DNA of 64,000 nucleotides from Enterococcus haemoperoxidus ATCC BAA-382 (lineage in GTDB: Bacteria; Bacillota; Bacilli; Lactobacillales; Enterococcaceae). The stretch is from positions 868,001 to 932,000 of the forward strand of contig NZ_KE136480.1 of NCBI RefSeq assembly GCF_000407165.1. The letters are read 5' to 3'. The position numbers were made by a program, and so were the translations under genes. Positions 4,696 through 30,267 of the stretch are shown piece by piece. Each line of letters begins with the position of its first letter. Position 1 is the stretch's first letter. The notes beneath the pieces are model-generated. The model did no database searches and had not been told where the DNA came from. It saw nothing but the letters and a program-made list of their open reading frames with translations.

Positions 4696-4706
4696 GGAGA
4701 ACGGAT

Positions 4707-5660
4707 ATGTCTTTGAAAGTGTTTTTGCAAGTTGTGGAAATTCAGACGAAATTAGCAAGTCTATTTCCCTTTGCAATTGGGGTGCTATTTTCGATAGCTT
4801 ATTTTAATCAGTTTCACGCAGGGTATACCCTGTTATTTTTCATTGGAATGGTTGTATTCGATATGGCGACGACCGCAATCAATAATTATATGGATTTTAA
4901 GAAAGCAAAATCGCAAGTATACAAATATGAAGAGAATATTATTGGCAGTTCAGGGATTGCGCCAGTTTTAGTTAGAAATATGATCTTTGGAATGATCGCT
5001 TTTGCAGCAGTTATCGGAATTTTTTTGACTGCTAAAACAGGTTGGTTATGTTTGGTAATAGGTGGAGTGTGCTGTTTTATTGGTATTTTTTACACATTTG
5101 GTCCGATTCCGCTCTCTCGTATGCCCTTAGGTGAAGTATTTAGCGGATTTACTATGGGACTTGGGATTTTTGCGCTGACGATTTATTTGAATGTACAAGT
5201 GAATCCTCCGTTTTATCTAATGCTTGATTGGAGTCGTGGAATATTCGCTTTGACTGGCAATCTGTGGGCAGTATTAGCGATCATTTGGGCCTCTTTACCG
5301 ATGGTGTTTACGATTGCGAATATCATGCTGGCAAATAATTTGAGAGATTTAGATACAGATATTGAGAATCACCGTTATACATTGGTTTATTATATTGGTA
5401 GAAAGCAAGGTTTGATTTTATTTCAACTATTGATGATGGCGTGTTATGTGGTTGTTTTGATTGGCTTGCCATTTGGCGTGTATCGCTGGCCGATTTTAAC
5501 TGTATTTTTATCTTTGCCAGTTATTTTGAACAATCTTCAGCTGTTCAAAAAGGAATTGCCGCATCCTAAAAGCTTTGGTTATTCGATAAAAAATTTGATG
5601 GTATTTAATGGAAGTTATTTATTAGGTCTATTACTGACGATTATTTTAGAAAAAATTTAA
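4707..5660 (+). CDS. UbiA-family prenyltransferase (MenA/DmkA-like)
   Basis: Polytopic membrane enzyme that joins a polyprenyl chain to an aromatic acceptor such as 1,4-dihydroxy-2-naphthoate, giving demethylmenaquinone. The sequence has about eight or nine hydrophobic helices. The first Asp-rich motif is NNYMDFKKAK (residues 54-63), and the second loop contains NNLRDLDTDIENH, typical of the family. 317 residues is close to MenA length. Its place directly after apbE matches the Listeria EET locus, where a second MenA-like enzyme supplies the quinone used by Ndh2. Substrate is inferred from family and context. Confidence 0.85.
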   Translation: MSLKVFLQVVEIQTKLASLFPFAIGVLFSIAYFNQFHAGYTLLFFIGMVVFDMATTAINNYMDFKKAKSQVYKYEENIIGSSGIAPVLVRNMIFGMIAFAAVIGIFLTAKTGWLCLVIGGVCCFIGIFYTFGPIPLSRMPLGEVFSGFTMGLGIFALTIYLNVQVNPPFYLMLDWSRGIFALTGNLWAVLAIIWASLPMVFTIANIMLANNLRDLDTDIENHRYTLVYYIGRKQGLILFQLLMMACYVVVLIGLPFGVYRWPILTVFLSLPVILNNLQLFKKELPHPKSFGYSIKNLMVFNGSYLLGLLLTIILEKI

Positions 5661-5742: not shown

Positions 5743-6714
5743 CTACTTTTTATTTTTTTTACTCTTAATGAATAGAAATAGTATAGCTAGTAAAATAATG
5801 GCAATACCGACAATTGAAACGTAAACTGTTTTCTTTTCCCCTGTATTTGGAAATAGATCTTTTTTCTTTTCTTCTTTTTTCTCAGAAGAGGACTGTGTAC
5901 TTTCCACAGGGTTAGATGTGTCTGTAGTTGCAGAGACACCAGCGAAGGTTTTATCGTTCAATGTGTAGACAGGTGAATAGTCGTTAGTTTCACTGTTAAA
6001 AGCAAAGAAACTGTAATTGTCTTGGTAAGAAAGTGTAAAGTAACCTTCAGCATCTGTTGAAACAGGATTATTTAGATCAACAAATGGATAAAATAATGTT
6101 ATGTTTGCAGGTGCTGAATCATAGTTAGCAGTATTGTCTCCGTATATATGAACGTTACTTGCTGCTACGCCATCTACTGATGATACTTTTCCTTTAACTT
6201 GTTTGTTGTCAGAATCATAGGAGATAAACTGTATATTGTAAGTTGGGGCAGTTTTTACTACTGTATACGCCATATTTAGGATAACTTCTTGTTTTTCTCC
6301 TTGATCCTCTTCCCAAGGATAAAGCATGAAGCTAACGTTGACTAAATTTTTTCCTAGTTTATCTGTTGGAGCTTCGTCTAAAAGTTTAAGATCTCTAAAT
6401 GCAGCACCATGAAAACCTCCATCTTGGTAGAGCATTTCAGCCGTCACTTTTTCTCCTTGAAAGACAACGAGTGTTGTGTGGATAATGTCACCGTACAGAT
6501 TTCCAATAGTGTTGGATGTTTCGGAGGAACTTGAATCTAATGTGGAAGAAGAACTGTTCTCCACAATTTTCTCATCATTTTTTTCTGTGTCTTGTGTTGA
6601 GGCTGAAGAGCTTTCAACTTTTGAATCCTCAGTGGTAGATAATATTTCCTCTGCAAAACTTGTGATTGGAAGAGCAAGCGATAATGCAACCAAACAAAAA
6701 ACAATTCTTTTCAT
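5743..6714 (-). CDS. Sortase-anchored surface protein with FPNTG signal
   Basis: Secreted wall-anchored protein of unknown role. The signal peptide is MKRIVFCLVALSLALPITSFAEE. A Ser/Thr/Glu-rich stretch (residues 24-70) follows, then a central region of about 190 residues with no motif I recognise. It includes VKGKVSSVDGVAASNVHIYG and TDAEGYFTLSY, resembling a carboxypeptidase-regulatory or Ig-like beta fold. The C-terminus is a Lys/Glu-rich linker, the sorting motif LFPNTGE, a hydrophobic span (VSIVGIAIILLAILFLFI) and KSKKNKK. FPxTG in place of LPxTG is a known enterococcal sorting variant. Monocistronic, bounded by terminators. Confidence 0.85.
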   Translation of the reverse strand: MKRIVFCLVALSLALPITSFAEEILSTTEDSKVESSSASTQDTEKNDEKIVENSSSSTLDSSSSETSNTIGNLYGDIIHTTLVVFQGEKVTAEMLYQDGGFHGAAFRDLKLLDEAPTDKLGKNLVNVSFMLYPWEEDQGEKQEVILNMAYTVVKTAPTYNIQFISYDSDNKQVKGKVSSVDGVAASNVHIYGDNTANYDSAPANITLFYPFVDLNNPVSTDAEGYFTLSYQDNYSFFAFNSETNDYSPVYTLNDKTFAGVSATTDTSNPVESTQSSSEKKEEKKKDLFPNTGEKKTVYVSIVGIAIILLAILFLFIKSKKNKK

Positions 6715-12549: not shown

Positions 12550-15500
12550 TTGGCTGGACACGTAGTAAAATACGGAAAACACCGCGAACGTAGAAGTTTC
12601 GCCCGGATCAGTGAAGTGTTGGAATTACCCAACTTGATCGAGATTCAAACAGACTCTTACCAATGGTTTTTAGATGAAGGACTAAGAGAAATGTTTGAGG
12701 ACATTTTACCGATCGATGATTTTCAAGGAAACCTATCTTTGGAATTTGTGGATTATGAATTAAAAGAACCTAAGTATACGGTAGAAGAAGCGCGTGCACA
12801 TGACGCAAACTATTCTGCACCGTTACACGTTACTCTACGATTGACAAACCGTGAATCTGGAGAAATCAAATCACAAGAAGTATTCTTCGGTGATTTCCCT
12901 CTAATGACTGAAATGGGAACATTTATCATCAATGGTGCAGAACGTGTTATCGTTTCTCAATTGGTACGTTCACCAGGTGTTTATTTCCATGGAAAAGTAG
13001 ATAAAAATGGTAAAGAAGGCTTTGGTTCAACAGTGATCCCTAACCGTGGTGCATGGTTAGAAATGGAAACTGACGCAAAAGATATTTCTTACGTACGTAT
13101 TGACCGTACACGTAAAATTCCTTTGACTGTATTAGTTCGTGCCTTAGGTTTTGGCTCTGATGATACAATTTTTGAAATTTTCGGTGAAACATTAAGCTTA
13201 CGTAATACAATCGAAAAAGATTTACACAAAAACGCAAGCGACTCTCGTACTGAAGAAGGGTTAAAAGATATTTATGAGCGTCTTCGACCTGGTGAGCCGA
13301 AAACGGCTGACAGTTCTCGTAACTTACTGAACGCTCGTTTCTTCGATCCAAAACGTTATGACTTAGCGAACGTTGGTCGTTACAAAGTCAACAAAAAATT
13401 AGATTTAAAAACACGTCTATTGAACCTAACTTTAGGAGAAACATTGATCGATGCTGAAACTGGCGAAATCATCGTTGAAAAAGGAACAGTATTAACTCAC
13501 CAAGTAATGGAAACATTAGGTGAACATATCGATAACGGCTTAAACAGTGTAACGTATTACCCAAGCGAAGATGGTGTAGTTACTGAACCAATGACAGTTC
13601 AAGTGATCAAAGTTCTTTCTCCAAAAGATCCAGAACGCATCGTGAACGTCATCGGTAATGGGTATCCTGATACAAGTGTGAAGACTGTTCGTCCAGCAGA
13701 TATCGTGGCTTCAATGAGTTATTTCTTTAACTTACAAGAAGACATCGGCAATGTAGATGATATCGATCACTTAGGAAACCGTCGTATTCGTTCAGTTGGT
13801 GAATTACTACAAAACCAATTCCGTATTGGTTTAGCTCGTATGGAGCGTGTGGTTCGTGAAAGAATGTCTATTCAAGACACTGAAACACTAACACCACAAC
13901 AATTGATCAATATTCGTCCAGTTGTTGCAAGTATCAAAGAATTCTTTGGATCTTCTCAATTATCACAATTCATGGATCAAACAAATCCTCTAGGTGAGTT
14001 GACACACAAACGTCGTCTATCTGCCTTAGGACCTGGTGGTTTGACTCGTGACCGTGCTGGTTATGAAGTTCGAGACGTTCACTATTCCCACTATGGCCGT
14101 ATGTGTCCGATCGAAACACCTGAGGGACCAAATATTGGGTTGATCAACAGCTTGTCAAGTTATGCCAAAGTGAACAAATTTGGTTTTATTGAAACACCTT
14201 ATCGTCGTGTTGATCGTGCCACTGGCAGAGTAACAGATAAAGTAGATTACCTAACTGCTGACACAGAGGATCACTACATTGTAGCGCAAGCAAACTCACG
14301 CTTAAATGAAGATGGAACATTCGCTGAAGAATTAGTAATGGCTCGTCTGCAAAGTGAAAACTTGGAAGTGACGATCGATAGAGTCGATTACATGGACGTT
14401 TCACCTAAACAGGTAGTTGCTGTTGCGACGGCTTGTATTCCTTTCTTAGAAAACGATGACTCCAACCGTGCCTTGATGGGTGCCAACATGCAACGTCAAG
14501 CAGTGCCATTGATCCAACCTCGTTCACCACTTGTGGGAACTGGTATGGAATACAAATCAGCACATGACTCGGGTGCTGCTCTACTATGTAAACATGATGG
14601 TGTCGTTGAATATGTGGATGCATCAGAAGTACGCGTTCGCCGTGACAATGGCGCATTAGATAAATATATGGTAACAAAATTCCGTCGTTCAAATTCAGGA
14701 ACAAGTTACAACCAACGTCCAATCGTTCTTTTAGGCGAAAAAGTTGAAAAAGGCGATACATTAGCAGATGGACCTTCTATGGAAGAAGGCGAAATGGCTT
14801 TAGGGCAAAACGTACTTGTCGGATTCATGACTTGGGAAGGATACAACTACGAGGATGCAATCATCATGAGCCGTCGTTTGGTAAAAGATGATGTTTATAC
14901 TTCTATTCATATTGAAGAATACGAATCAGAAGCTCGTGATACAAAATTAGGACCTGAAGAAATCACGCGTGAAATTCCAAACGTCGGAGAAGATGCTTTG
15001 AAAGATCTTGACGAAATGGGCATTATCCGTATCGGTGCTGAAGTTAAAGATGGTGACCTATTAGTAGGTAAAGTAACGCCTAAAGGGGTAACTGAGTTAT
15101 CTGCTGAAGAACGTTTACTACATGCAATCTTTGGTGAAAAAGCCCGTGAAGTTCGTGATACATCTCTACGTGTGCCTCACGGTGGCGGCGGGATTGTTCA
15201 TGATGTGAAAATCTTTACTCGTGAAGCCGGAGACGAATTATCTCCAGGCGTAAACATGTTAGTTCGTGTGTATATCGTGCAAAAACGTAAAATCAACGAA
15301 GGCGATAAAATGGCCGGACGTCACGGTAATAAAGGGGTTGTATCCCGTATTATGCCGGAAGAGGATATGCCATTCTTACCAGACGGCACACCAATCGATG
15401 TCATGTTGAACCCGCTTGGGGTACCATCACGTATGAATATTGGACAAGTACTAGAATTGCACTTGGGTATGGCTGCTCGTCAGTTAGGTATCCACATTGC

Positions 15501-20026: not shown

Positions 20027-20825
<799 letters not shown>

Positions 20826-20884: not shown

Positions 20885-21424
20885 ATGGAACATCATTATT
20901 ACGAAAAAGCGATTTTTGCTGGCGGTTGTTTTTGGTGCATGGTTAAACCTTTTGATACTCAACCAGGTATTATTTCCGTGGTGTCAGGATATACAGGAGG
21001 GCATGTTGAATATCCAACCTATGAGCAAGTCACAACAGGCGCAACTGGTCATACAGAAGCAGTTGAAATAACGTATGATCCTGCAATCATTCCATACGAA
21101 AAATTAGTAGAAACTTATTGGCAGCAAACAGATCCAACAGATGCCTTAGGTCAATTTGCAGATCGTGGTGATTCCTATCGTCCTGTTATTTTTTATAGTA
21201 ATGAATCGCAAAAAAAGATCGCTGAAAAGTCAAAAGATGTATTACAAAAGAGTGGTCGCTTTACTCAACCAATTGTGACTAAAATTGAACCAGCTCAACC
21301 GTTCTATCCAGCGGAAGACTATCATCAAGAGTATTATAAGAAACATAGTATACATTATAATCTCTATCGAGAAGGATCAGGCAGAGCTAGTTTTATTCGG
21401 AAAAATTGGAAAGAAGATAAATAA
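20885..21424 (+). CDS. msrA: Peptide methionine sulfoxide reductase A
   Basis: Reduces methionine-S-sulfoxide in proteins using thioredoxin. The catalytic motif GGCFWCM is at residues 13-19. Also seen: [31 protein letters not shown] and the C-terminal YHQEYYKKH. 179 residues, cytoplasmic, no signal peptide. Single gene with its own terminator. No msrB domain is fused. Confidence 0.95.
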
Positions 21425-21481
21425 AAAAGTGAGTTGACATTACCAGCTATTTGAATAGTAGGTAATATCAACTCTTCTTTT
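21423..21481 (+). terminator. Terminator after msrA
   Basis: GAGTTGACATTACC (21431-21444) pairs with GGTAATATCAACTC (21461-21474) with one mismatch, followed by TTCTTTT. Confidence 0.82.
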
Positions 21482-21533
21482 AAGAGCATATAACTCGAGT
21501 TTGAAGATATCAAAGGCAGCAGGAGGAATGATA

Positions 21534-21578
21534 ATGTTATCAGTAGAATGTTGTAATTTCAATATTATTAATATATAA
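21534..21578 (+). CDS. Possible 14-codon ORF upstream of the ComR-like regulator
   Basis: ATG at 21534 preceded by AGGAGG with 7-bp spacing, an excellent ribosome site, encoding MLSVECCNFNIINI. It ends 44 bp before the regulator start. It could be a small peptide gene, a leader ORF or a relic of a longer gene. The only support is the ribosome site and its position, so confidence is low. Confidence 0.3.
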   Translation: MLSVECCNFNIINI

Positions 21579-21621
21579 TTAACATGATGATTGATATAAT
21601 TTTTATGCAGGACGGTGAAAA

Positions 21622-22533
21622 ATGGATATAAAATTAGAATTAGGAAAAAAAATACGCTTACTTCGTGAGCAAAAAGAAATGAGTAGAGAAGCTTTTTGTG
21701 ATGATGAGTTAGAATTAACAGTCAGACAGCTTTCAAGAATTGAGTCAGGAGAATCTTTACCTACGTTACCCAAGCTTACATACATATCTCAACGATTATT
21801 TGTTCCAATTTCACATTTGATAGATGAAAGTCAAATGACCTTACCTAAGAGGTATTTAGAATTAAAAATGAGTTTGTTTAGGCGGCCGCCTCAGTATAAT
21901 AAAGAGATGGAAGATAAAGTAGAATCTATTTTTAACGAAATCTATGAACAATTTTATGATATTTTACCTGAAGAGGAACAATTGTTAGTTGATGTTGATC
22001 AAGCAATCATTGATGTTCATCATTCAGAAAAAATAGACTTTGGTGAAGGGATTTTAAGTGATTACTTTTTTCAAGTAAAGAATAAAACAAAATATACAGA
22101 CAATGATTTGATCATTGCTAACCTTTACTTTCATTGCAGTAGGTATTCAGATGTGGATAGTAAGGAATTTGAACAGTTAGTTGAGAAGTGTCTTGATCAA
22201 GTTAATTATGCTTCAGATGTCGGTGTCTTGATTCTGGGTCAAATTTTAATCATTGTCATGGGGGTATATATCAGTATAGATGAGTACGGGAAAGTTATGA
22301 ATGTAATCAAGATTTTTAATACTATCATGAAGTCAACGCAAGATTTTCACAAAAAACCAGTTGTAGATATGCTAGAAGGAAAATGTTGGTTACAAAAGGG
22401 TGAAATTGAAAAAGCAAAACAAAAATATCAGGATGCTAGTTTATTAGCGAGGCTTCATCAAGAAGAGTTATTATCAAAAAAGATAGAAGAAGAATGGAAA
22501 TTGGATTTAAAAGAAAGTATATTTGAAGACTAG
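21622..22533 (+). CDS. ComR/Rgg-like peptide-responsive regulator
   Basis: 303 residues. N-terminal XRE helix-turn-helix (residues 5-65, with ELTVRQLSRIESGESLP, a stretch I recognise as close to streptococcal ComR). Then an all-helical region of about 230 residues fitting the TPR peptide-binding domain of the Rgg/ComR/PlcR group (ILPEEEQLLVDVDQAIIDV; C-terminal WLQKGEIEKAKQKYQDASLL). ComR proteins bind an imported short peptide, dimerise and activate promoters with a GACA/TGTC dyad. Such dyads and 11-codon genes ending LWWEI lie 350-650 bp downstream. Start ATG 21622 follows a weak site (GGACGG). Base use is more AT-rich than rpoBC, suggesting an accessory region. Confidence 0.8.
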   Translation: MDIKLELGKKIRLLREQKEMSREAFCDDELELTVRQLSRIESGESLPTLPKLTYISQRLFVPISHLIDESQMTLPKRYLELKMSLFRRPPQYNKEMEDKVESIFNEIYEQFYDILPEEEQLLVDVDQAIIDVHHSEKIDFGEGILSDYFFQVKNKTKYTDNDLIIANLYFHCSRYSDVDSKEFEQLVEKCLDQVNYASDVGVLILGQILIIVMGVYISIDEYGKVMNVIKIFNTIMKSTQDFHKKPVVDMLEGKCWLQKGEIEKAKQKYQDASLLARLHQEELLSKKIEEEWKLDLKESIFED

Positions 22534-22792
22534 ACAGGAAGAATTAATCAAGGTGCTTTATATATAATAACGTTCCTATACTTCATCATATACATAATTT
22601 AGATACTATTAATAGCATTTCAAATTTCTATAAACAGGTGAAACAATAGTGCTAAATGTAGGATCAAGAACAAATCCGATTACTAGCAAACCAAAATGGA
22701 TTACTACACAGTATCTGATAGGTGCAGTTTGAGTGAGCTCTCGTAAACAATAGATTGGCAATGGGAAGAAGAGTTTGTAAATAATTAAGTCA

Positions 22793-22833
22793 TAAACTAT
22801 TAAAGCATGAGTATGTTTTAATAGTTTATTTTT
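22793..22833 (+). terminator. Terminator after the ComR-like gene
   Basis: Perfect 12-bp stem TAAACTATTAAA (22793-22804) with TTTAATAGTTTA (22817-22828) and TTTTT. The rest of 22534-22884 holds no ORF I can support. The terminator separates the regulator from the pheromone-like repeats. Confidence 0.75.
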
Positions 22834-22883
22834 GTGCATAAAAATAGGCTATATAAGAATATATGAAACCAACAACAGATGCT

Positions 22884-22897
22884 GGACAAGAATGTCC
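22884..22897. promoter_or_regulatory. ComR-box-like dyad 1
   Basis: GGACA-AGAA-TGTCC, a perfect 5-bp dyad followed by TGT and an A-rich run. It is 101 bp upstream of the first short peptide gene. GACA/TGTC-centred dyads are the known binding form for ComR-type regulators; a ComR-like gene lies just upstream. No clean -10 box is seen between dyad and ORF. Confidence 0.6.
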
Positions 22898-22985
22898 TGT
22901 TGAAAAAATTGATCAAGCAGTAAAGTGAGACATGTAAACAAGAGGAGAAAAACTTATAAGAATCGAAAGAAAGCAGGTGAGTGAA

Positions 22986-23021
22986 ATGCTTGAATTGCTA
23001 GGGCTATGGTGGGAAATCTAA
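22986..23021 (+). CDS. Pheromone-like 11-residue peptide, copy 1
   Basis: ATG at 22986 behind AGGTGA with 5-bp spacing, the anti-SD complement. It encodes MLELLGLWWEI then TAA. Short hydrophobic peptides with a Trp-Trp pair near the C-terminus are the hallmark of one ComS/XIP class that binds ComR. 11 codons is shorter than known ComS precursors (about 15-30). Near-identity of two tandem copies and the ComR-like regulator nearby are the support. Too short for statistical proof. Confidence 0.6.
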   Translation: MLELLGLWWEI

Positions 23022-23027
23022 AAGGAT

Positions 23028-23039
23028 GACAAGAATGTC
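23028..23039. promoter_or_regulatory. ComR-box-like dyad 2
   Basis: GACA-AGAA-TGTC, at exactly the same distance (101 bp) from the second peptide gene as dyad 1 from the first. Confidence 0.58.
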
Positions 23040-23128
23040 CTGTTGAAAAAATTGATCAAGCAGTAAAGTAAGACATGTAAACAAGAGGAAAAAAACTTAT
23101 AAGAATCGAAAGAAAGCGGGTGAGTGAA

Positions 23129-23164
23129 ATGTTTGAATTGCTAGGATTATGGTGGGAAATCTAA
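23129..23164 (+). CDS. Pheromone-like 11-residue peptide, copy 2
   Basis: ATG at 23129 behind GGGTGAG. It encodes MFELLGLWWEI, differing from copy 1 only at residue 2 (Leu to Phe). Several DNA differences between the two ORFs are silent (GGG/GGA, CTA/TTA), which suggests the peptide is under selection. Same caveats as copy 1. Confidence 0.6.
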   Translation: MFELLGLWWEI

Positions 23165-23167
23165 AAA

Positions 23168-23179
23168 GATAAAAATATC
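23168..23179. promoter_or_regulatory. Degenerate third dyad before the peptide operon
   Basis: GATA-AAAA-TATC followed by CTGT, aligned with the other dyads but with G-C pairs changed to A-T symmetrically in both arms. It lies 89 bp upstream of the gene at 23257, nearly the same distance as dyads 1 and 2 from their ORFs. It could be a weaker operator that puts the export operon under the same regulator. TATTAA at about 23194 is a possible -10. Confidence 0.45.
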
Positions 23180-23256
23180 CTGTAAAGAAGACATATTAAG
23201 AAAAACAGAAAACAGGATCAATACATAAGCAAGTCAAAAGAAAGGAAGGAAAGGAA

Positions 23257-23463
23257 ATGTCTAATATAGAATATTTTATTGAAGATCAAACAGTTGTGCA
23301 TAGAAAATTAATCATTGTGAATAGTAGCAAAGAAGACAAATTGTTGAAGGTATTAAATCAAGGCGAATTATTAAAGATTGTGATGATTCCCAAAAAGACA
23401 GAGAAGGAATTGATTTTTGAACATTTAAAGGTAGAAGACCTCGAAATTTTAGAAATAAAATGA
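23257..23463 (+). CDS. Small protein of unknown function, first gene of the peptide operon
   Basis: 68 residues, no signal or membrane span, start ATG with AGGAAAGGAA upstream. Predicted mixed alpha/beta from pattern (VHRKLIIVNSSKEDKLLKVL; ELLKIVMIPKKTEKELIF). I do not recognise it. It is followed after 27 bp by the ABC ATPase gene. It could be an immunity or accessory protein; nothing in the sequence decides. Confidence 0.7.
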   Translation: MSNIEYFIEDQTVVHRKLIIVNSSKEDKLLKVLNQGELLKIVMIPKKTEKELIFEHLKVEDLEILEIK

Positions 23464-23490
23464 CAAATCCAAATAACGGGAGTGCTGAAA

Positions 23491-24393
23491 ATGGAATTAA
23501 TTGAAAAAAATAACTATCTATTAAAAACAAATGACTTGGTGAAGAAATATAAAGAGTATCAGGCTGTGAATGAAGTTTCAATGACTATCAATAAAGGGGA
23601 TATTTACGGGTTTATCGGGAAAAATGGTGCTGGAAAAACAACCTTTATTCGCTTAGCAACAAGATTGATTGAAAAAAGCTCAGGGTCATTGTCTTTCAAC
23701 TCAGAAAATGTGCTGAAGATGGGAGCGGTTATTGAAGGGCCGGCTTGTTATCCATATTTATCCGCCAAAGATAATTTAAATTATTATGCAATTCAAAAAA
23801 ATATTAAAGACAAAAAGCGTATTGACGAGGTACTAGCATTTGTAGGACTCGATAAAGTCGACAATAAGAAACTTTTTAAGGATTATTCGTTGGGAATGAA
23901 ACAACGACTTGGAATCGGCTTAGCTATTTTGGATCAACCAGAGTTTCTGATTTTAGATGAACCCATCAATGGATTAGATCCTCAAGGAATCGTTGAGATT
24001 AGGGAAATTATTCATCGATTGAATCAAGAGTATAGCACGACAATTTTGATCTCAAGTCATATTTTAACAGAGCTTTCATTGGTTGCCACTAGATACGGCA
24101 TTATAAATGAAGGAAAGTTAGTCAAAGAATTGACGAAAGAAGAATTGGAAAATGAGTGTGGTCAAAATATTGTGCTAACAAGCTCAGATAATCATCAAGC
24201 AAATAAGATTTTAGCTAGTCATGATTATTATGTAGAAGTTCATCAAAATGAACTGTATATCAAGGAAAAGAAGGAAAATATGGAAACAATCGCTCAACTC
24301 TTATTTGACCATGGTATTTATTTAACAAATTATTATTACAAAGAAGAAAACTTAGAAGAGTACTTCTTAAATTTAATTGAAGGAGGAGTTTAA
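23491..24393 (+). CDS. ABC exporter ATPase, LanF/BcrA-like (probable self-protection)
   Basis: 300 residues from the ATG at 23491, 8 bp after GGGAG. The in-frame GTG at 23482 overlaps that site. Walker A GKNGAGKTT, signature DYSLGMKQRLGIG, Walker B FLILDEPINGLDP and switch SSHILTEL are intact. The SLGMKQR signature and the E-loop region are typical of the bacteriocin-immunity/bacitracin-resistance exporters (LanFEG, BcrAB). Four bases separate its stop from the permease ATG next door. Probably pumps the cluster's own peptide from the membrane. Confidence 0.85.
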   Translation: MELIEKNNYLLKTNDLVKKYKEYQAVNEVSMTINKGDIYGFIGKNGAGKTTFIRLATRLIEKSSGSLSFNSENVLKMGAVIEGPACYPYLSAKDNLNYYAIQKNIKDKKRIDEVLAFVGLDKVDNKKLFKDYSLGMKQRLGIGLAILDQPEFLILDEPINGLDPQGIVEIREIIHRLNQEYSTTILISSHILTELSLVATRYGIINEGKLVKELTKEELENECGQNIVLTSSDNHQANKILASHDYYVEVHQNELYIKEKKENMETIAQLLFDHGIYLTNYYYKEENLEEYFLNLIEGGV

Positions 24394-24394
24394 A

Positions 24395-25123
24395 ATGATG
24401 CATTTACTAAAATCAGATATTTACAGAATTATCAAAAGTTCACTATGCTTTTACTCCATGGCAGGCTTGATTCTTTTAGGAGTATTCTTCGGATTTTTAG
24501 GCGCCTCAAGCACAGATACTGCTGAGGAGTTAATACAATCAGGGCTGTCAAATGGTTCTATGCTGATACCAGTATTTTTGACCAATGTTTTCATGGTTGC
24601 TTGGGGACATGAATTTAATTACCGAGTAGTCAACAATTCTTTAATTGCAGGAATGAGTAGAAAAACATTCTTTTTTAGTAAAACAGTCTTAACTTTTCTG
24701 CTAACTATTTTGTTTGTGACTGTTTACGCAGCAAGCTTAATCAGTGTAGCATTTATTTTAAAAGGAAGCTTTCCTTTGACTGTAGCTCTTAAGCCTGTAC
24801 TTGTTCAGCTACCTTTGTATTTAGCAGCGAGTTGTGTGGGAATTTTATTATTCAATGTGTTACAAGCTTCGTATACTTCTGTTGCAGCATTTATTGCCAT
24901 TGCATTTATTGGAGATACTATTTTATCTAATATCATTTCAAATTATCTTGAAAAGTTCGACTTTCTGTTGGATACATTGTTCTTTTCAAATTTACGCAAC
25001 ATTACAGATTTAGCAGTGATAACTAACGACCAGCTGCAGACAGCGTTAATCAGTAGTGTCATTTATGGAGTCATTGCATTACTTATTAGTTTTAACGTAT
25101 TTCGTAATAGAGAATTTAAATAA
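24395..25123 (+). CDS. ABC exporter permease, LanE-like
   Basis: 242 residues with six hydrophobic segments in the ABC-2 layout (MAGLILLGVFFGFLGA, MLIPVFLTNVFMVAWGHEF, TVLTFLLTILFVTVYAA, YLAASCVGILLFNVL, VAAFIAIAFIGDTIL, SSVIYGVIALLISFNVF). AAGGAGGAG precedes the ATG at 24395; an ATG at 24398 is equally placed. The GHEF(N)YRVVNNSLIAGMSR loop after the second helix is typical of lantibiotic-immunity permeases. Partner of the preceding ATPase. Confidence 0.83.
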   Translation: MMHLLKSDIYRIIKSSLCFYSMAGLILLGVFFGFLGASSTDTAEELIQSGLSNGSMLIPVFLTNVFMVAWGHEFNYRVVNNSLIAGMSRKTFFFSKTVLTFLLTILFVTVYAASLISVAFILKGSFPLTVALKPVLVQLPLYLAASCVGILLFNVLQASYTSVAAFIAIAFIGDTILSNIISNYLEKFDFLLDTLFFSNLRNITDLAVITNDQLQTALISSVIYGVIALLISFNVFRNREFK

Positions 25124-25136
25124 TGAGGTGGGAAAT

Positions 25137-25652
25137 ATGAAGAAAAAAGTTATTTACGGACTTCTTTTACTTGTCCTGTGTGCAAGCAGTTTATTCTCAG
25201 CTACAAAGGCATATTCATTAAATAATGAGATGGAGAAAAAAGAAGAAGAGTTAATCATTTCAAAAAATAACTATCCAGAAGTTTATGATTTTATCGATGC
25301 TATGACTGTGGAATCTTTTAAGAATAAAATTGAGAAACAAGAGGATTTCTATGTCTACGTTGGTCGCCCGACTTGTGGAGACTGTAATGCCTTTGAGCCA
25401 GAGTTGATCGAGTTGATTGAAAAATATGAAATTGAAAATCAACTCAAGTATTTAAATGTTGCAAAGTTGAGGACACAGGAAAATGAGTGGGAAACGTTCA
25501 AAAAAAACTATGATTTACTTTATACTCCTACTTTAGCAAAATTTGAACAAGGAAAGCTTGTTAGCAAAGTTGAGTGGTCACCAGAGTCAGGCATTTCAAT
25601 CAAGCAAGTAAAAAAATGGATTGAAAACAACATGGAAAAAGTTACTAATTAA
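25137..25652 (+). CDS. Membrane-anchored thioredoxin-like protein 1
   Basis: 171 residues from the ATG at 25137 (AGGTGGG upstream). The N-terminal anchor is VIYGLLLLVLCASSLFSA, then a short coiled region and a thioredoxin fold outside the membrane. Its active site is RPTCGDCNAFEPEL and the cis-Pro loop is LLYTPTLAKF. It matches the PedC/BrcD bacteriocin accessory family, which forms disulfides in two-cysteine bacteriocins. The product peptides of this cluster have exactly two cysteines, so oxidation of them is the likely job. Confidence 0.83.
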   Translation: MKKKVIYGLLLLVLCASSLFSATKAYSLNNEMEKKEEELIISKNNYPEVYDFIDAMTVESFKNKIEKQEDFYVYVGRPTCGDCNAFEPELIELIEKYEIENQLKYLNVAKLRTQENEWETFKKNYDLLYTPTLAKFEQGKLVSKVEWSPESGISIKQVKKWIENNMEKVTN

Positions 25653-25679
25653 ATACATCTGAAAATGGAGGAAAAACAA

Positions 25680-26225
25680 ATGAAAAAAAAGATAGCTATT
25701 CTTGTGATAGGTGTAGTCATTGCAGGTATTTTTTACCTGAATTACGTGAATGAAGAAAATACCAAGGTAAATAAAGAATGGGCATTGACGGATGAACAAG
25801 TATCTAATGTAGTGTTAAAAGGAATCAGTCAAGATTTAAATGTTATTTTGAAAAAAGGGGATACAAATACGGTGCAAGTTGCTGGGGAAATGCCTGTCTC
25901 TTTTGCAGATAAACTAAAAGAGATCCAACCAGAGAAAGATAAAATGTTGATTTCATTTGCAACAGAGATAGGTGTCAGTATTGCTAAAAATAGTAAGGAG
26001 AAATTAACAGTAACTATTCAGACTACAGACACTAAGCTGTTAAAAGAACTGAATATCAAGATGAACAAAGGAAATGTAGTTATTCAAGTTCCTAATGAGT
26101 TTGAACGAAGATATGAACTGGAAACGAATAAAGGAGAGGTAACAAATCCGAAATCAGTTAAAAATAATGCCGATGAGTTGATCAAAGTCGAATTAGGATT
26201 TGGCAATATCGATATTGTCGAGTAA
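25680..26225 (+). CDS. Membrane-anchored DUF4097-like protein
   Basis: 181 residues; ATG at 25680 follows GGAGG by 8 bp. N-terminal anchor IAILVIGVVIAGIFYLNYV, then an extracytoplasmic domain with short beta repeats (VVLKGISQDLNVILKKGDTNTV; ELNIKMNKGNVVIQVPN; YELETNKGEV; ELGFGNIDIVE) as in DUF4097/adhesin-like beta-helix domains. Such proteins sit beside ABC exporters in many bacteriocin loci, but their role is unclear. Immunity or an exporter helper are both possible. Stop is 17 bp before the C39 exporter ATG. Confidence 0.65.
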   Translation: MKKKIAILVIGVVIAGIFYLNYVNEENTKVNKEWALTDEQVSNVVLKGISQDLNVILKKGDTNTVQVAGEMPVSFADKLKEIQPEKDKMLISFATEIGVSIAKNSKEKLTVTIQTTDTKLLKELNIKMNKGNVVIQVPNEFERRYELETNKGEVTNPKSVKNNADELIKVELGFGNIDIVE

Positions 26226-26244
26226 GAAAGTGAGAGGGGAAACT

Positions 26245-28293
26245 ATGTACGCACATACTATGCAAAATATGGTCAATGATTGTGGTCTTGCTACAATTCA
26301 AACGCTATTCAAGCAGCTAAAAATAAAAAATGTTGCGATGGAAGTAGAACAACAAGTAGATACTATTGAACAAGGGTTATCTTTATTAGAAATCCAACAG
26401 ATATTAGAAAACAATGGTGTGATCAGCGAGGCTTATCAGGTAACAAATATTCGAGAATTATTAACACAACAATTTCCGTTGATTTGTGTTATACATCGAG
26501 ATGGCTTGCCTCATTATATTGTTGTTCATGCAATCAAAAATAATGCAATCACATTTTCTGATCCAGCAGAGCCCAAAATTTTGATAGAAGATATTGAAGA
26601 TTTTACGGAACGATTTATGGGCTATGCGATTTGCGTTGAGGAAATAAAAACTATAGATCGGGAAAAAAGTAATGGAGTCAAAGAGCTGTACAAAGAAATT
26701 ATTGGCAATGTCAAAGTGAAAGATCGATGTGAATTGTTTATCCTGACTGTTTTAAAATATATTTTACCGCTTAGTGTGACATTTTTTATGCAATATATTA
26801 TGATTTTTCAAATGGAAAACATGACGTTACCTTACTTTTTCGCATCGGTTGTCTTTTTCCTGACATTAATGGGCGGATACTACTATGTGAACCAAAAAGA
26901 TATCCAGTTGAAAACAGCGCTGGAAAATCAATTTCAACAGAAAGTATTGTTTGATTATTACCAGCAAAAAACCAATAATTTTGTCGAAAAGAGAAATATG
27001 GATAATATCATGGGGCACTTCTGGAATTTGCTTTTATCGGTGACAGGAATTCTTCATAAACTATATTTGAAATTTGATAGTGTATTCATCGTTTTCTTAT
27101 ATGGGATTTTGTTCAATATTAATGGATTCTTAGCAGTGATGATGATGTTTTGGTCAGTTGTTTACATGGTTCTAGTGATGAGAGAAGCAGAGAAAATCCA
27201 GAATTTTGAAAAAGCTTTAGTGACGAGTTCAAATAGTTTATCATCCACAATTGAAGAGCAAGTTAGTCACTCTTTAGATATCCGTTTATTTACGAAAGAT
27301 GGAGTCGCAGAAGAGAAAGTATTGGATAAAATGTCTGATTATTTCGATAAGAAATTGATCAGCTATGAATTGTCGGCTAGGATAGATTCTTTATTTGAAT
27401 TGATTAGTTCGTGTATGATGCTTAGTACATTCGGTTTATTTATCTATTCCTATATTTTTGGTGAAGATCAATCGATGTCAGAATTAATTCTCAGTGTATT
27501 TATTATTTCCATTGTGATATCGAAATTAAAGCCAATTGTGCAAACGTGGTTAAAAGTTCAGAAAAGTGAAATGGCTGTATCCTATATTCAAAATAATATT
27601 GAGCGTAGTGAAGTTGATCAAGAAACGAAACAGCTTGGGGTATCTAAAGATATTGAGAAAATTGAGTTGAAGAATATCTCATTTTCATATAACGAAGACA
27701 CTTCGGTTTTGTCTAATTTAAATTTGCGTTTCCGCAAGGGACATGTGACAGGAATATCAGGAGGAAATGGTTCAGGAAAAACAACGTTAACGAAGATATT
27801 ATTAGGAATTTTAGAACCGGACAGCGGTGAAGTAAGCTTAGATGATCATAGCTTTACTTCGCTATCACATACAAACATTGCCAAGTACACTAACGCTTAT
27901 TTTCCCGAAATGTCTGTATTCAAAAACTCAATCGGAAATAATATTCAATTTAATTTGAATGAAAAAATGGCTCATTCTAATAAAATGATTGAAAGTTATA
28001 AAAAACGTCTTAACTTTGATTTGCCAGACAATCATGTTGTTTTTTCTCAAGGCGGAAATCTATCTCAGGGGCAAATTCAAAAGATACTACTACTTCGAGC
28101 TTTAGAAGTAGAAAAATCAATTTATATCTTTGATGAACCTACTACAAATTTGGATAAAGAATCGGCGAAAGAGTTTCTTCAAATCATCAAAGAATTGTCA
28201 AAAAATAAGATAGTTATTTTAATTACACACGATCAACAGTTGTTAAATCAATGTGATGAAATTATTTTATTAGAAGAGGGAGGTGCGGCATGA
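26245..28293 (+). CDS. Peptidase-containing ABC exporter (C39), LagD type
   Basis: 682 residues from the ATG at 26245 (GAGAGGGGA upstream). Cuts leaders after a double-glycine-type site and exports the core. The C39 domain (1-135) has MQNMVNDCGLAT with the catalytic Cys13 of the mature frame, His in HYIVVHAI and Asp in FSDPAEP. The membrane domain (about 155-440) has five or six helices. The ATPase has GGNGSGKTT, LSQGQIQKI, SIYIFDEPTTNLD and LITHDQQ. All catalytic residues are present, so it should be active. It is the obvious processor of the seven tandem prepeptides 490 bp downstream. Confidence 0.92.
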   Translation: MYAHTMQNMVNDCGLATIQTLFKQLKIKNVAMEVEQQVDTIEQGLSLLEIQQILENNGVISEAYQVTNIRELLTQQFPLICVIHRDGLPHYIVVHAIKNNAITFSDPAEPKILIEDIEDFTERFMGYAICVEEIKTIDREKSNGVKELYKEIIGNVKVKDRCELFILTVLKYILPLSVTFFMQYIMIFQMENMTLPYFFASVVFFLTLMGGYYYVNQKDIQLKTALENQFQQKVLFDYYQQKTNNFVEKRNMDNIMGHFWNLLLSVTGILHKLYLKFDSVFIVFLYGILFNINGFLAVMMMFWSVVYMVLVMREAEKIQNFEKALVTSSNSLSSTIEEQVSHSLDIRLFTKDGVAEEKVLDKMSDYFDKKLISYELSARIDSLFELISSCMMLSTFGLFIYSYIFGEDQSMSELILSVFIISIVISKLKPIVQTWLKVQKSEMAVSYIQNNIERSEVDQETKQLGVSKDIEKIELKNISFSYNEDTSVLSNLNLRFRKGHVTGISGGNGSGKTTLTKILLGILEPDSGEVSLDDHSFTSLSHTNIAKYTNAYFPEMSVFKNSIGNNIQFNLNEKMAHSNKMIESYKKRLNFDLPDNHVVFSQGGNLSQGQIQKILLLRALEVEKSIYIFDEPTTNLDKESAKEFLQIIKELSKNKIVILITHDQQLLNQCDEIILLEEGGAA

Positions 28294-28694
28294 GAAAAAA
28301 AATATTGGGCATATTAATCATACTAGCAATGTTTGCAGCAGGAAGTTTCTGTTTTTCTCAACTTTCTTTTTCAAAAGGGAAAGAAGCGTTCATAAGTGTC
28401 AACGAGCAGGAGGTTGTGAAAGCAATCAAAGACAAACAGGATATGATTGTTTATTATGGGCAAGACTCGTGTGGTGCTTGCCGAGTATTTCAACCTACAT
28501 TAACAGAAGCGATTAAAACAACGAAGAAGAAAGTTTACTTTTTAGATGGGGATAACTTTTCAACAAAAAAATTTAGTGAAAAGTATAATATCACCGGAAC
28601 ACCTACAATGATCATTATTAAAAAAGGAGAGGTATTGCGTTTTGAGGGGGTGATGGAACTAGCAGAAACAATCGAAACCTTAGAATCGATTTAA
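28290..28694 (+). CDS. Membrane-anchored thioredoxin-like protein 2
   Basis: 134 residues; its ATG overlaps the exporter stop by 4 bases (ATGA), so translation is coupled. Anchor ILGILIILAMFAAGSFCF, then a compact thioredoxin fold with GQDSCGACRVFQP and cis-Pro ITGTPTMIIIKKGE. A second thioredoxin-like protein in one bacteriocin operon suggests an oxidase/isomerase pair acting on the exported two-cysteine core. It is distinct from the first in length and sequence. Confidence 0.85.
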   Translation: MRKKILGILIILAMFAAGSFCFSQLSFSKGKEAFISVNEQEVVKAIKDKQDMIVYYGQDSCGACRVFQPTLTEAIKTTKKKVYFLDGDNFSTKKFSEKYNITGTPTMIIIKKGEVLRFEGVMELAETIETLESI

Positions 28695-28781
28695 ATAACT
28701 AACCAAAGAAAAAAAACTTTAATACTATTGTGAAAAGAATTGGAAATATAAAAAATAACTATACCAGAGGAGAGAATGAAT

Positions 28782-28865
28782 ATGAAAAAATTAACGATGA
28801 AAGAAAAAAACGAAGTAAAAGCAGGCTGGGTTTGCGTATTATGGGGAGCCGTATGCTGGGGTTAA
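28782..28865 (+). CDS. Two-cysteine prepeptide, copy 1 (divergent leader)
   Basis: 27 residues. Leader MKKLTMKEKNEVKAG, core WVCVLWGAVCWG. Numbered from the cut site, Leu -12, Glu -8, Val -4, Ala -2 and Gly -1 fit the C39 double-glycine leader pattern, with AG in place of GG. The core has Cys at 3 and 10, three Trp and no charge. It is the only copy whose leader differs (Leu-Thr-Met-Lys versus Met-Thr-Lys-Gln). Preceded by AGAGGAGAG. Confidence 0.85.
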   Translation: MKKLTMKEKNEVKAGWVCVLWGAVCWG

Positions 28866-28885
28866 ATAAAAAAGGAGGAATAACC

Positions 28886-28969
28886 ATGAAAAAAATGACA
28901 AAACAAGAGAAGAATGAAGTAAAAGCAGGCTGGGTTTGTGTATTATGGGGAGCCGTATGCTGGGGTTAA
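28886..28969 (+). CDS. Two-cysteine prepeptide, copy 2
   Basis: Leader MKKMTKQEKNEVKAG, core WVCVLWGAVCWG. Preceded by AAAGGAGG. Same leader in copies 3-7. Confidence 0.85.
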   Translation: MKKMTKQEKNEVKAGWVCVLWGAVCWG

Positions 28970-28989
28970 ATAAAGAAGGAGGAACGACT

Positions 28990-29073
28990 ATGAAAAAAAT
29001 GACAAAACAAGAGAAGAATGAAGTAAAAGCGGGCTGGGTTTGCGTATTATGGGGAGCCGTATGCTGGGGCTAA
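28990..29073 (+). CDS. Two-cysteine prepeptide, copy 3
   Basis: Same 27-residue product as copy 2; GCG for Ala at -2 where copy 2 has GCA, a silent change. Confidence 0.85.
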   Translation: MKKMTKQEKNEVKAGWVCVLWGAVCWG

Positions 29074-29093
29074 ATAAAGAAGGAGGAACGACT

Positions 29094-29177
29094 ATGAAAA
29101 AAATGACAAAACAAGAGAAGAATGAAGTAAAAGCGGGCTGGGTTTGCGTATTATGGGGAGCCGTATGCTGGGGTTAA
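29094..29177 (+). CDS. Two-cysteine prepeptide, copy 4
   Basis: Same product as copy 2; nearly identical to copy 3 in DNA, suggesting recent duplication or gene conversion. Confidence 0.85.
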   Translation: MKKMTKQEKNEVKAGWVCVLWGAVCWG

Positions 29178-29197
29178 ATAAAGAAGGAGGAACGACT

Positions 29198-29281
29198 ATG
29201 AAAAAAATGACAAAACAAGAGAAGAATGAAGTAAAAGCAGGCTGGGTTTGTGTATTATGGGGAGCCGTATGCTGGGGCTAA
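29198..29281 (+). CDS. Two-cysteine prepeptide, copy 5
   Basis: Same product as copy 2; TGT for the first core Cys, silent. Confidence 0.85.
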   Translation: MKKMTKQEKNEVKAGWVCVLWGAVCWG

Positions 29282-29301
29282 ATAAAGAAGGAGGAACGAC
29301 T

Positions 29302-29385
29302 ATGAAAAAAATGACAAAACAAGAGAAAAACGAAGTAAAAGCAGGCTGGGTTTGCGTATTATGGGGAGCGGTATGTTGGGGCTAA
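29302..29385 (+). CDS. Two-cysteine prepeptide, copy 6
   Basis: Same product as copy 2; GCG for core Ala8 and TGT for Cys10, silent; AAAAAC in the leader shared with copies 1 and 7. Confidence 0.85.
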   Translation: MKKMTKQEKNEVKAGWVCVLWGAVCWG

Positions 29386-29405
29386 ATAAAGAAGGAGGAA
29401 CGACT

Positions 29406-29489
29406 ATGAAAAAAATGACAAAACAAGAGAAAAACGAAGTAAAAGCAGGCTGGGTTTGTGTATTATGGGGAGCCGTATGTTGGGGATAG
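29406..29489 (+). CDS. Two-cysteine prepeptide, copy 7
   Basis: Same product as copy 2, ending in TAG where the others use TAA; last unit before the terminator. Confidence 0.85.
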   Translation: MKKMTKQEKNEVKAGWVCVLWGAVCWG

Positions 29490-29504
29490 ACTAAAAATAG
29501 TTTA

Positions 29505-29540
29505 AAATGCGTCATCAAATTTTGATGACGCATTTACTTT
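29505..29540 (+). terminator. Hairpin ending the peptide operon
   Basis: AAATGCGTCATCAAA (29505-29519) and TTTGATGACGCATTT (29521-29535) form a long perfect dyad, with a short T-rich tail (TACTTT). Likely terminator, possibly bidirectional with the convergent prepilin peptidase gene. Confidence 0.75.
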
Positions 29541-29577
29541 GTAGTAATCAAGGAAGGACAAGTCTTTATGAAATAGT

Positions 29578-30267
29578 TTACATAATCCACACAAAAAACA
29601 AACCAAAACTAAGAAAAGGGACAAATGGAATCTCGTAAATTTCTTTCTTTAGTACATAGTTCGAGAAAATATAAAAAATCAGTCCGCTGCTGCTGGCAAT
29701 ACAAAGCATGAGTAATTGTGAATGGAGACCTAATAAAGTTCCCCAAATACTAATGAGTAAAACATCTCCACCGCCTAAACAGAATGTGTCTAATCGATTT
29801 AGGAGTGAGAGGCTCATAAAAGTAAGTAAACCCAATTGCCAATGAAAGATTTGAGCTAAATATAAATGGTTAATACATAGAAACAGGGAAAAGCTATAAA
29901 AAAGTTTCGGGTCAACAACAAAGTAGTAAATGTCAGTTAGCGAGAGAGAAAATGCCATCAGCAAAAAAAGCAAACGATAAATAGTGAAACTAGAGACTCC
30001 TTCAGAGAAATTATAGACAAATAATAACCCACAGATTCCCTCACTAAAGAGATAAAGACAAGACAACTGTTGTTTACAATGACGACAGCGAAATTGTAGA
30101 AATAAAATAGAAATGATCGGGATCAACTCAAAGTTCTTTAATTTAGTCTGGCAAAATGAACAGCGTGAGGCTGGGAAAAATATTGATCGGTTAATCGGCA
30201 CACGTTCTGCGACTAAACAAAGAAATGAACCGACTACACACCCAAGGATAAAATAAATAATCAGCAT
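29578..30267 (-). CDS. comC: Prepilin peptidase (ComC/PilD type, A24)
   Basis: Membrane aspartic peptidase that removes leader peptides of type IV prepilin-like proteins such as ComGC, needed for the DNA-uptake pseudopilus. 229 residues. N-terminal helix with GSFLCLVAERVP, the cytoplasmic zinc domain with two pairs CSFC and CRHC, catalytic Asp in LSLTDIYYFVVD and in the GGGDVLLI motif, and seven or eight helices in total. Single gene, divergent from the kinase and convergent with the peptide array. Whether competence is functional here cannot be seen. Confidence 0.88.
   Translation of the reverse strand: MLIIYFILGCVVGSFLCLVAERVPINRSIFFPASRCSFCQTKLKNFELIPIISILFLQFRCRHCKQQLSCLYLFSEGICGLLFVYNFSEGVSSFTIYRLLFLLMAFSLSLTDIYYFVVDPKLFYSFSLFLCINHLYLAQIFHWQLGLLTFMSLSLLNRLDTFCLGGGDVLLISIWGTLLGLHSQLLMLCIASSSGLIFYIFSNYVLKKEIYEIPFVPFLSFGLFFVWIM

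Follow-up and report, generated by a model that had tools for sequence, protein, structure and literature searches.

Comparison with described systems

Among described systems, the closest analogue of the locus reported here, an 8-kb cassette with all genes on one strand in the 3.58 Mb genome of Enterococcus haemoperoxidus ATCC BAA-382 (label G000), appears to be the pneumococcal rtg system (RtgR/RtgS and the RtgAB exporter; PMC7018657). The window analysed is a stretch of 64,000 nucleotides (nt) of contig NZ_KE136480.1 (positions 868,001 to 932,000; G000:C2:868001-932000). The likeness to rtg extends to a regulator of the Rgg/ComR family, a short pheromone with a Trp motif and two near-identical promoters with an inverted repeat, and to a peptidase-containing ATP-binding cassette (ABC) exporter that is driven by the regulator in rtg together with co-regulated double-glycine peptides, for which a bacteriocin function is likewise only suspected (PMC7018657). 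In contrast to the mini-genes described below, however, RtgS carries a Trp-Gly-Trp motif, is transcribed divergently and acts through fragments from the C-terminal end of a longer product. RtgR falls outside the cluster of ComRs, and the passages considered mention neither a thioredoxin pair nor a tandem array of two-cysteine peptides (PMC7018657).

Streptococcal ComRS, including the ComR/ScuR regulators of Streptococcus salivarius, offers a ComR receptor, a GACA box, a type II sigX-inducing peptide (XIP) of the WW type and a positive loop as points of likeness (PMC6703854, PMC5131891), type II XIPs being described as WW-containing (PMC5131891). In S. salivarius ComR directly drives bacteriocin promoters, and ComR and ScuR provide a precedent for bacteriocin control (PMC6703854); since this shows the use of ComR beyond competence, the present cassette is classed as ComRS-type and not as a competence system. 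It differs from the streptococcal circuits in its Enterococcus host, in mini-genes of only 11-14 codons and in a box pattern that occurs at the cassette only. The leaderless communication peptides sensed by RopB receptors are similarly very short translated pheromones without an obvious leader and are present in enterococci, but their receptors belong to the RopB clan and most of the peptides have 8-10 residues, whereas the locus in the window combines a ComR-like receptor with a WWxx end (PMC10518010). A survey of RRNPPA regulators in complete genomes places ComR in the Lactobacillales, mainly in Streptococcus, and its table of key genera has PrgX as the sole entry for Enterococcus (PMC9765709). 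Among the literature matches listed, no report of a ComRS circuit in enterococci was found.

On the product side, class II double-glycine bacteriocins of the pediocin/BrcD type come with thiol-disulfide helpers, and the cassette shares with them a C39 exporter, a double-glycine-type leader and a thioredoxin-fold helper. The differences lie in cores of 12-22 residues, a leader of mostly 15 residues, the tandem genes, the presence of two helpers and the lack of any family profile above cut-off. In gallocin A the disulfide is reported to be required for activity (PMC10100652). A study that used several of the species considered here as strains does not mention such peptides in the passages considered (PMC10134562).

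On balance, the cassette is probably a ComRS-type, cell-density-sensing system that makes very small bacteriocins with a single disulfide and probably a β-hairpin fold, where antimicrobial activity, cleavage, the disulfide and quorum dependence are what we infer. The individual parts belong to known kinds; as far as the searches reach, neither the product class nor their combination has been described. An initial annotation made from the sequence of the window had described the same genes at this locus, and while that observation is confirmed, its interpretation is partly supported and, taken as a hypothesis, mostly correct, as comparison with relatives turns a single odd locus into what looks like a family with exchangeable switches.

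The ComR regulator, its boxes and the WW mini-genes

The product of the first gene of the cassette (Table 1) matches PF18710 with 200.4 bits (cut-off 26.5), is the sole match to this profile at E <= 1e-20 in the genome and has the ComR entries 5fd4 (E 1.6e-58), 6hu8 and 5jub as its top solved-structure relatives, which bears out its annotation as a ComR-like regulator. Compared with S. thermophilus ComR, where R35 and R39 contact the GACA motif (PMC5131891), both of these arginines are kept, as is the LPEEE stretch, and R51 is replaced by Lys. Membership in the RopB clan of Rgg proteins is not indicated, with 14.1 bits for RGG_Cterm against a cut-off of 36.9 and ComR_TPR matched instead, and the PADLOC matches to the regulator are weak, the best being helix-turn-helix (HTH) models.

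The pattern used to search for ComR boxes in S. suis is GACA N4 TGTCCTG N20 TA (PMC4072589). With the spacer widened to 19-22 nt and the upstream AAAG part of the pattern not required, this published core has two matches in the whole genome, both in the cassette, and none in the reversed control; a looser pattern recovers the same two sites only, with one match in the reversed control. The box-to-TA spacer in the window is 21 nt, as opposed to 20 in the S. suis pattern. Two of the three dyads noted initially are accordingly intact ComR boxes, while the third, at about 23168, is degenerate, fails the published pattern and appears with a relaxed one only. Because the published pattern matches the cassette alone in the genome, no competence target is seen, a statement that refers to ComR boxes found by pattern, comX itself not having been searched for. 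In the eight genomes with a close ComR (G000, G010, G003, G008, G018, G001, G019 and G013), the distance from the start of the box to the -10-like element is 36 nt in all 17 strict boxes, a count that excludes the degenerate third boxes and the genome G068.

The two 11-codon WW genes are present as annotated and sit in a 143-nt tandem duplication with 95% identical units, each unit consisting of a box, the -10-like TAAAGT, a ribosome-binding-like site and an 11-codon gene. At least one mini-gene of 11-14 codons ending in WW plus two residues is found in all eight genomes with a close ComR. Of 2000 dinucleotide shuffles of the intergenic region of the window, 2 produced a WW-x-x mini-ORF (open reading frame) together with a ribosome-binding-like site, while the real region has two; the other regions gave 0 of 2000 each, and seven of the eight real regions had a WW mini-gene. 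The eight regions of this control include that of G068, and G001 was left out (masked run in the region). The genome encodes ten SBP_bac_5 proteins and one M50 protease above cut-off, none of them tied to the mini-peptide. As a separate observation, copy 2 of the mini-gene in G003 (stretch L030, intergenic 6063-6500) is stopped before the WW motif and copy 1 is intact.

Further ComR genes occur in enterococci, among them three in tandem in G017 (L169, 6454-9234). By eye, a ComR gene adjoining an orf68-like ORF was seen in G021, G017, G012 and G022 (stretches L168-L170, L172 and L173), some with dyads and one in G021 with a WW mini-ORF.

The prepeptide array and a family of two-cysteine cores

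The array consists of seven genes spaced by 104 nt, each coding for 27 residues with the 12-residue core WVCVLWGAVCWG; six of these prepeptides have the same sequence, the first one deviating in its leader. The leader ends in VKAG in all seven, an end of the double-glycine type. The initially annotated identity of the core across the array is complete also in detail, as all 21 copy pairs lack any amino-acid change in the core and differ there by synonymous codons only.

In a search of 196 genomes the 12-residue core was found in three, namely in the window genome (seven copies), in Enterococcus termitis (G010; six matches) and in Enterococcus sp. BWB1-3 (G021; seven copies), with an identical core in the first two and a V to I change in the third. 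When the seven window copies were compared with five of the six G010 copies, the cores of all 35 pairs differed by synonymous changes only (2-4 per pair), with 3-4 amino-acid changes in the leaders, and against G021 every pair showed a single amino-acid substitution in the core and five leader substitutions. Since the core differences are synonymous while the leaders change, the 12-mer appears, on small numbers, to be under stricter conservation than the leader; within one genome, gene conversion might contribute to the likeness of the copies. The initial annotation had proposed a search for the core, the prepeptide and the regulator/C39 pair and for the same gene order; similar cassettes are present in relatives.

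The 12-mer is not the one-off that it first seemed, being one of a family in which most cores are longer. A total of 30 distinct two-cysteine cores of 12-22 residues, with leaders of mostly 15 residues, were collected from 79 prepeptides in 17 stretches, mostly as tandem arrays beside or near homologous exporters; a single array can comprise as many as nine genes in tandem and encode several different cores, and in 23 of the 30 cores ten residues separate the cysteines. The regular expression behind these counts required [AG]G and two cysteines, so that exceptions to the leader end are undetectable by it, and counted five of the six G010 matches. Cores resembling KFCVVDAWGFKLFCWY and their partners occur in G017, G011, G014 and G007, LRFCFFYWKGWGFFCK in G018, G001 and G019, WKCVVVIGKIGLICWS in G003 and KFCVIMVGKVGIFCWS in G068, while G008 has two peptide types with longer leaders and single or paired peptides are found in G012, G060 and the second loci of G013 and G003, in the latter two about 6 kb from the exporter. 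The filter found no short two-cysteine array near the exporter relatives of G015 and G020 (Enterococcus moraviensis) or near those of G195 and G366, which lie outside the family; all four were dropped from the core counts.

Midway between the cysteines, 9 of 12 core clusters have a glycine, compared with a shuffled mean of 3.0 (p 0.0002), the central dipeptides seen being NG, KG, WG, FG and GK. The test used 29 of the 30 cores, the omitted one matching another core apart from the absence of the last Ser, which lies beyond the tested stretch, and its result is suggestive only because it was conceived after the cores had been viewed. A central glycine would fit a disulfide-closed β-hairpin.

The window prepeptide has no Pfam or NCBIfam match, ten other peptides gave none above cut-off (one of them being of another type), tblastn of the prepeptide against plasmids returned no match, and the literature search with four core strings found no paper. 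Longer cysteine-containing, double-glycine-like peptides were observed near related exporters in L146 (G015; 4539-4727) and L178 (G195; 14077-14301). Stretches L142 (G003), L143 (G013) and L034 (G012) hold a related exporter and a thioredoxin-like pair near ABC genes, which we take to be MacA/MacB-like, with aromatic-rich two-cysteine peptides.

The export module and the accessory ABC genes

Profiles confirm the C39 exporter and the two thioredoxin-like proteins of the initial annotation. Cys13 and His90 of the exporter are invariant in ten of ten aligned sequences. In a search with the C39 profile at E <= 1e-90, matches were found in 18 of 105 genomes of the family, and 16 of the 22 genomes of the genus, including that of the window, had one. 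A scan of genome contigs with the C39 alignment returned three Enterococcus loci (E. termitis, E. sp. BWB1-3 and E. moraviensis), the remaining 77 of 80 matches having at most 36% identity, mostly over the ABC part.

The ABC pair reported initially as an exporter pair is present, but its label is doubtful, since the ATPase finds its best match in a lantibiotic-protection ABC model, at a score below the cut-off; judging from sequence, an immunity function is probable. The pair occurs in 13 of 13 cassettes compared by identity matrix, with a homologue of the permease in all 12 others at 26% (G021) to 81% (G010). At the corresponding site of G013, comR, the boxes, the mini-ORF, orf68, the ABC pair and the LiaG-like gene are kept and the exporter, the thioredoxins and the peptides are absent (stretch L167, 3811-7571), the sole C39-profile match of this genome at E <= 1e-90 being a distant exporter elsewhere. 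As the ABC pair and the LiaG-like gene are retained there without the exporter and peptides, the idea of built-in immunity put forward initially gains support, and the remnant would suit an immunity-only form if the ABC pair, as we suppose, provides immunity.

The small protein orf68 accompanies ComR in all eight close-ComR loci compared and possibly is a modulator of ComR. Searches of NCBIfam and PADLOC gave no family for it and Pfam gave no family above cut-off, and its fold prediction is unusable (mean predicted local distance difference test, pLDDT, of 43.7).

Exchange of modules

Seven of the cassettes occupy one chromosomal site, rpoC-msrA-xylB, after msrA in G000, G010 and G008 and before it in G018, G001, G019 and G013; the site is free of a cassette in seven of seven relatives read (of 15 with a located msrA). 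At this site ComR and orf68 share one relationship and the exporter part another: the ComR of G010 is 78% identical to that of G018 and 63% to that of G000, whereas its C39 exporter is 36% identical to that of G018 and 75% to that of G000. As read from these identity matrices, not from built trees, the exporter/thioredoxin/peptide part appears to be exchanged while the ComR part stays in place.

The regulator, too, is an exchangeable part, of the ComRS, agr-like or two-component type. By domain scan, the homologous exporter of G017 is accompanied by AgrB, an AgrD-like peptide of 39 residues, a GHKL kinase and a LytTR regulator; G011 and G014 have ORFs similar to this set in the same order, and in G021 the exporter is found with genes for a histidine kinase and a GerE-type regulator. 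The chances seem evenly balanced that these loci together form an undescribed enterococcal class of minimal bacteriocins, namely single-disulfide β-hairpins of 12-22 residues with a central x-Gly turn, encoded by tandem genes, served by a dedicated C39/two-thioredoxin module and governed by interchangeable quorum-sensing switches, which would include the first competence-free ComRS circuit outside Streptococcus, with near-leaderless pheromones of 11-14 residues.

Proposed mechanism and alternative explanations

In the proposed model, the WW mini-genes would give rise to XIP-like pheromones, which would be released, taken up again through an oligopeptide permease and then activate ComR. The regulator would bind the two boxes and amplify the mini-genes, with transcription presumably reading through into the operon. 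The C39 exporter is predicted to cut the prepeptide after the leader glycine (AG|W) and to export the 12-residue core, whose Cys3-Cys10 disulfide the two thioredoxin-fold proteins would close outside the membrane. The oxidised core may be a small β-hairpin with W6-G7 at the turn and may kill or inhibit related bacteria, while the ABC pair and the LiaG-like protein would protect the producer; the seven copies would give dosage, and the exporter/thioredoxin/peptide part would move across enterococci independently of the switch. The peptide loop driving export of a short two-cysteine peptide, as first proposed, is well supported by comparison, namely by the box, the WW gene, the C39 exporter, the thioredoxin pair and the conserved core, with its quorum step as a prediction.

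Several observations weigh against this model. The pocket residues T90, Y91 and K100 of S. thermophilus ComR are unmatched in an ungapped alignment, where a shift by one residue would, by eye, place QY opposite TY, and G068 has ComR and a box without a WW mini-ORF. Both thioredoxin-fold proteins fall short of the PedC/BrcD profile (TIGR01295, 50.5 and 50.4 bits against a cut-off of 120); a PedC/BrcD-like way of working is nevertheless possible, because a CxxC motif is present in both. The case for core conservation is built on 12 codons with 2-4 synonymous changes per pair, with the one amino-acid change in G021, and 3 of the 12 core clusters lack the central glycine in a statistic chosen with the cores in view. 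The window core has no charged side chain, which is unusual for a membrane-active peptide. The lantibiotic-protection profile, best for the ABC ATPase, is matched below its cut-off, and the LanF-like pair is not universal, other ABC genes being found at the exporter loci of G012, G015 and G020 and the second ones of G013 and G003, which slightly lowers confidence in the proposed explanation.

Short peptides exported by C39 transporters can also act as signals, and the two-cysteine peptide might be a disulfide-closed pheromone, and no weapon, that is read by a histidine kinase elsewhere, with ComRS as its upstream trigger. The agr-like loci of G017 and G014 lend this some substance: as they have two kinase-sized ORFs (one of them scanned) and one AgrD-like gene was seen, one kinase may be free. 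No kinase gene is found in the window cassette, though, and the presence of several different cores in arrays of as many as nine genes, the ABC pair in the 13 cassettes compared (though not in some more distant exporter loci) and its persistence in G013 after peptide loss speak against a signal, so that we regard this explanation as unlikely. A further improbable reading has the WW mini-peptide, or a portion of the product, exported by the ABC pair, with self-protection left to the LiaG-like protein or orf68. Such a role would agree with the lack of an identified dedicated exporter for the mini-peptide, with the tie of orf68 to ComR and with the joint retention of the pair, comR and the mini-gene in G013, but the pair lies beside the exporter without an adjacent close ComR in G021, G017, G011 and G014 (with a permease of only 26% identity in G021), and lantibiotic protection is the function to which the best profile of the ATPase points.

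The uncharged core could alternatively indicate peptides without antibacterial action whose target is the surface of the producer itself, biofilm or a host, and the Rtg paper mentions double-glycine peptides that have roles of this kind (PMC7018657). Inter-bacterial conflict accounts better for the way cores have diversified between related species at one site and for the immunity-only-like remnant, which makes this reading very improbable in our assessment. A decayed or silent relic, to which the degenerate third dyad might point, is hardly credible at all given that the ORFs of the cassette are open, the seven core copies differ synonymously only and the same core is present in a second species.

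If the bacteriocin model is true, the peptides would, to our knowledge, be some of the smallest double-glycine peptides, easily synthesised and provided with a complete, compact export and oxidation module, and the 30 variants would constitute a natural set for structure-activity work. Enterococci would then possess a signal circuit of the streptococcal competence type for which no competence target is visible, and with signal switch and product swapped as separate parts at one site, the evolution of pherotypes and product types would become directly testable.

Locus layout and flanking region

The comR-like gene is followed by a hairpin, the 143-nt tandem duplication, the degenerate third box, orf68 and the genes for the ABC ATPase and permease, after which come thioredoxin-like protein A (CGDC), the LiaG-like protein, the C39 exporter, thioredoxin-like protein B (CGAC), the seven prepeptides and a terminator (Table 1). 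A hairpin-like sequence after comR was also seen by eye in several relatives; in the window, this inverted repeat was not among the sites of the terminator scan. The scan found 6 terminator-like sites in 21400-29700, compared with a shuffled mean of 2.4, and the hairpin at the 3' end of the array probably ends the operon.

Table 1. Features of the cassette, with positions in the 64,000-nt window.
Feature	Position	Strand	Evidence
comR-like gene, HTH + ComR_TPR, pheromone receptor/activator type, 303 aa	21622..22533	+	PF18710 E 4e-59
Likely comR terminator, 17-nt inverted repeat + T-rich tract after comR	22792..22829	+	inferred from repeat pair
ComR box 1, GACA N4 TGTCCTG + -10-like TAAAGT	22885..22926	+	box pattern
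comS-like mini-gene 1, MLELLGLWWEI, 11 codons	22986..23021	+	mini-ORF search
ComR box 2 + -10-like TAAAGT	23028..23069	+	box pattern
comS-like mini-gene 2, MFELLGLWWEI, 11 codons	23129..23164	+	mini-ORF search
Third ComR-box-like dyad, degenerate, before orf68	23168..23183	+	relaxed pattern only
orf68, small protein beside ComR	23257..23463	+	62-71% in 7 other loci
ABC ATPase, LanF/lantibiotic-protection-like	23491..24393	+	TIGR03740 213 bits, cut-off 309.75
ABC permease partner, 241 aa	24398..25123	+	ORF; no Pfam family
Thioredoxin-fold protein A, CGDC, N-terminal hydrophobic segment, PedC/BrcD-like	25137..25652	+	PF00085 1.8e-7; TIGR01295 E 1.9e-13; DUF6568 4e-10
LiaG/DUF4097-like protein, N-terminal hydrophobic segment	25680..26225	+	weak sub-cut-off NF049997, PF13349; homologues in relatives
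C39 peptidase-containing ABC exporter	26245..28293	+	PF03412 9.7e-21, PF00005 6e-25
Thioredoxin-fold protein B, CGAC, N-terminal hydrophobic segment, PedC/BrcD-like	28290..28694	+	PF00085 2.7e-14; TIGR01295 2.1e-13
Seven tandem prepeptide genes, leader end VKAG, core WVCVLWGAVCWG	28782..29489	+	ORF and repeat analysis
Intrinsic-terminator-like hairpin, 14 bp, array 3' end	29505..29535	+	terminator scan

The cassette is flanked by msrA on one side and on the other by a gene that presumably codes for a prepilin-peptidase-like protein. An in-frame TGA in the second MsrA (10 of 15 genomes) was considered as a sign of a selenoprotein and rejected, the TGA being the terminal stop codon in the three copies read. 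Beside msrA, on the minus strand at 20027-20801 of the window, lies a gene that we take to be sugar-phosphate-isomerase-like and that appears split into two overlapping frames, which may reflect decay or a sequencing error; a similar-looking gene is a single ORF of 242 or 239 aa in G008 and G013.

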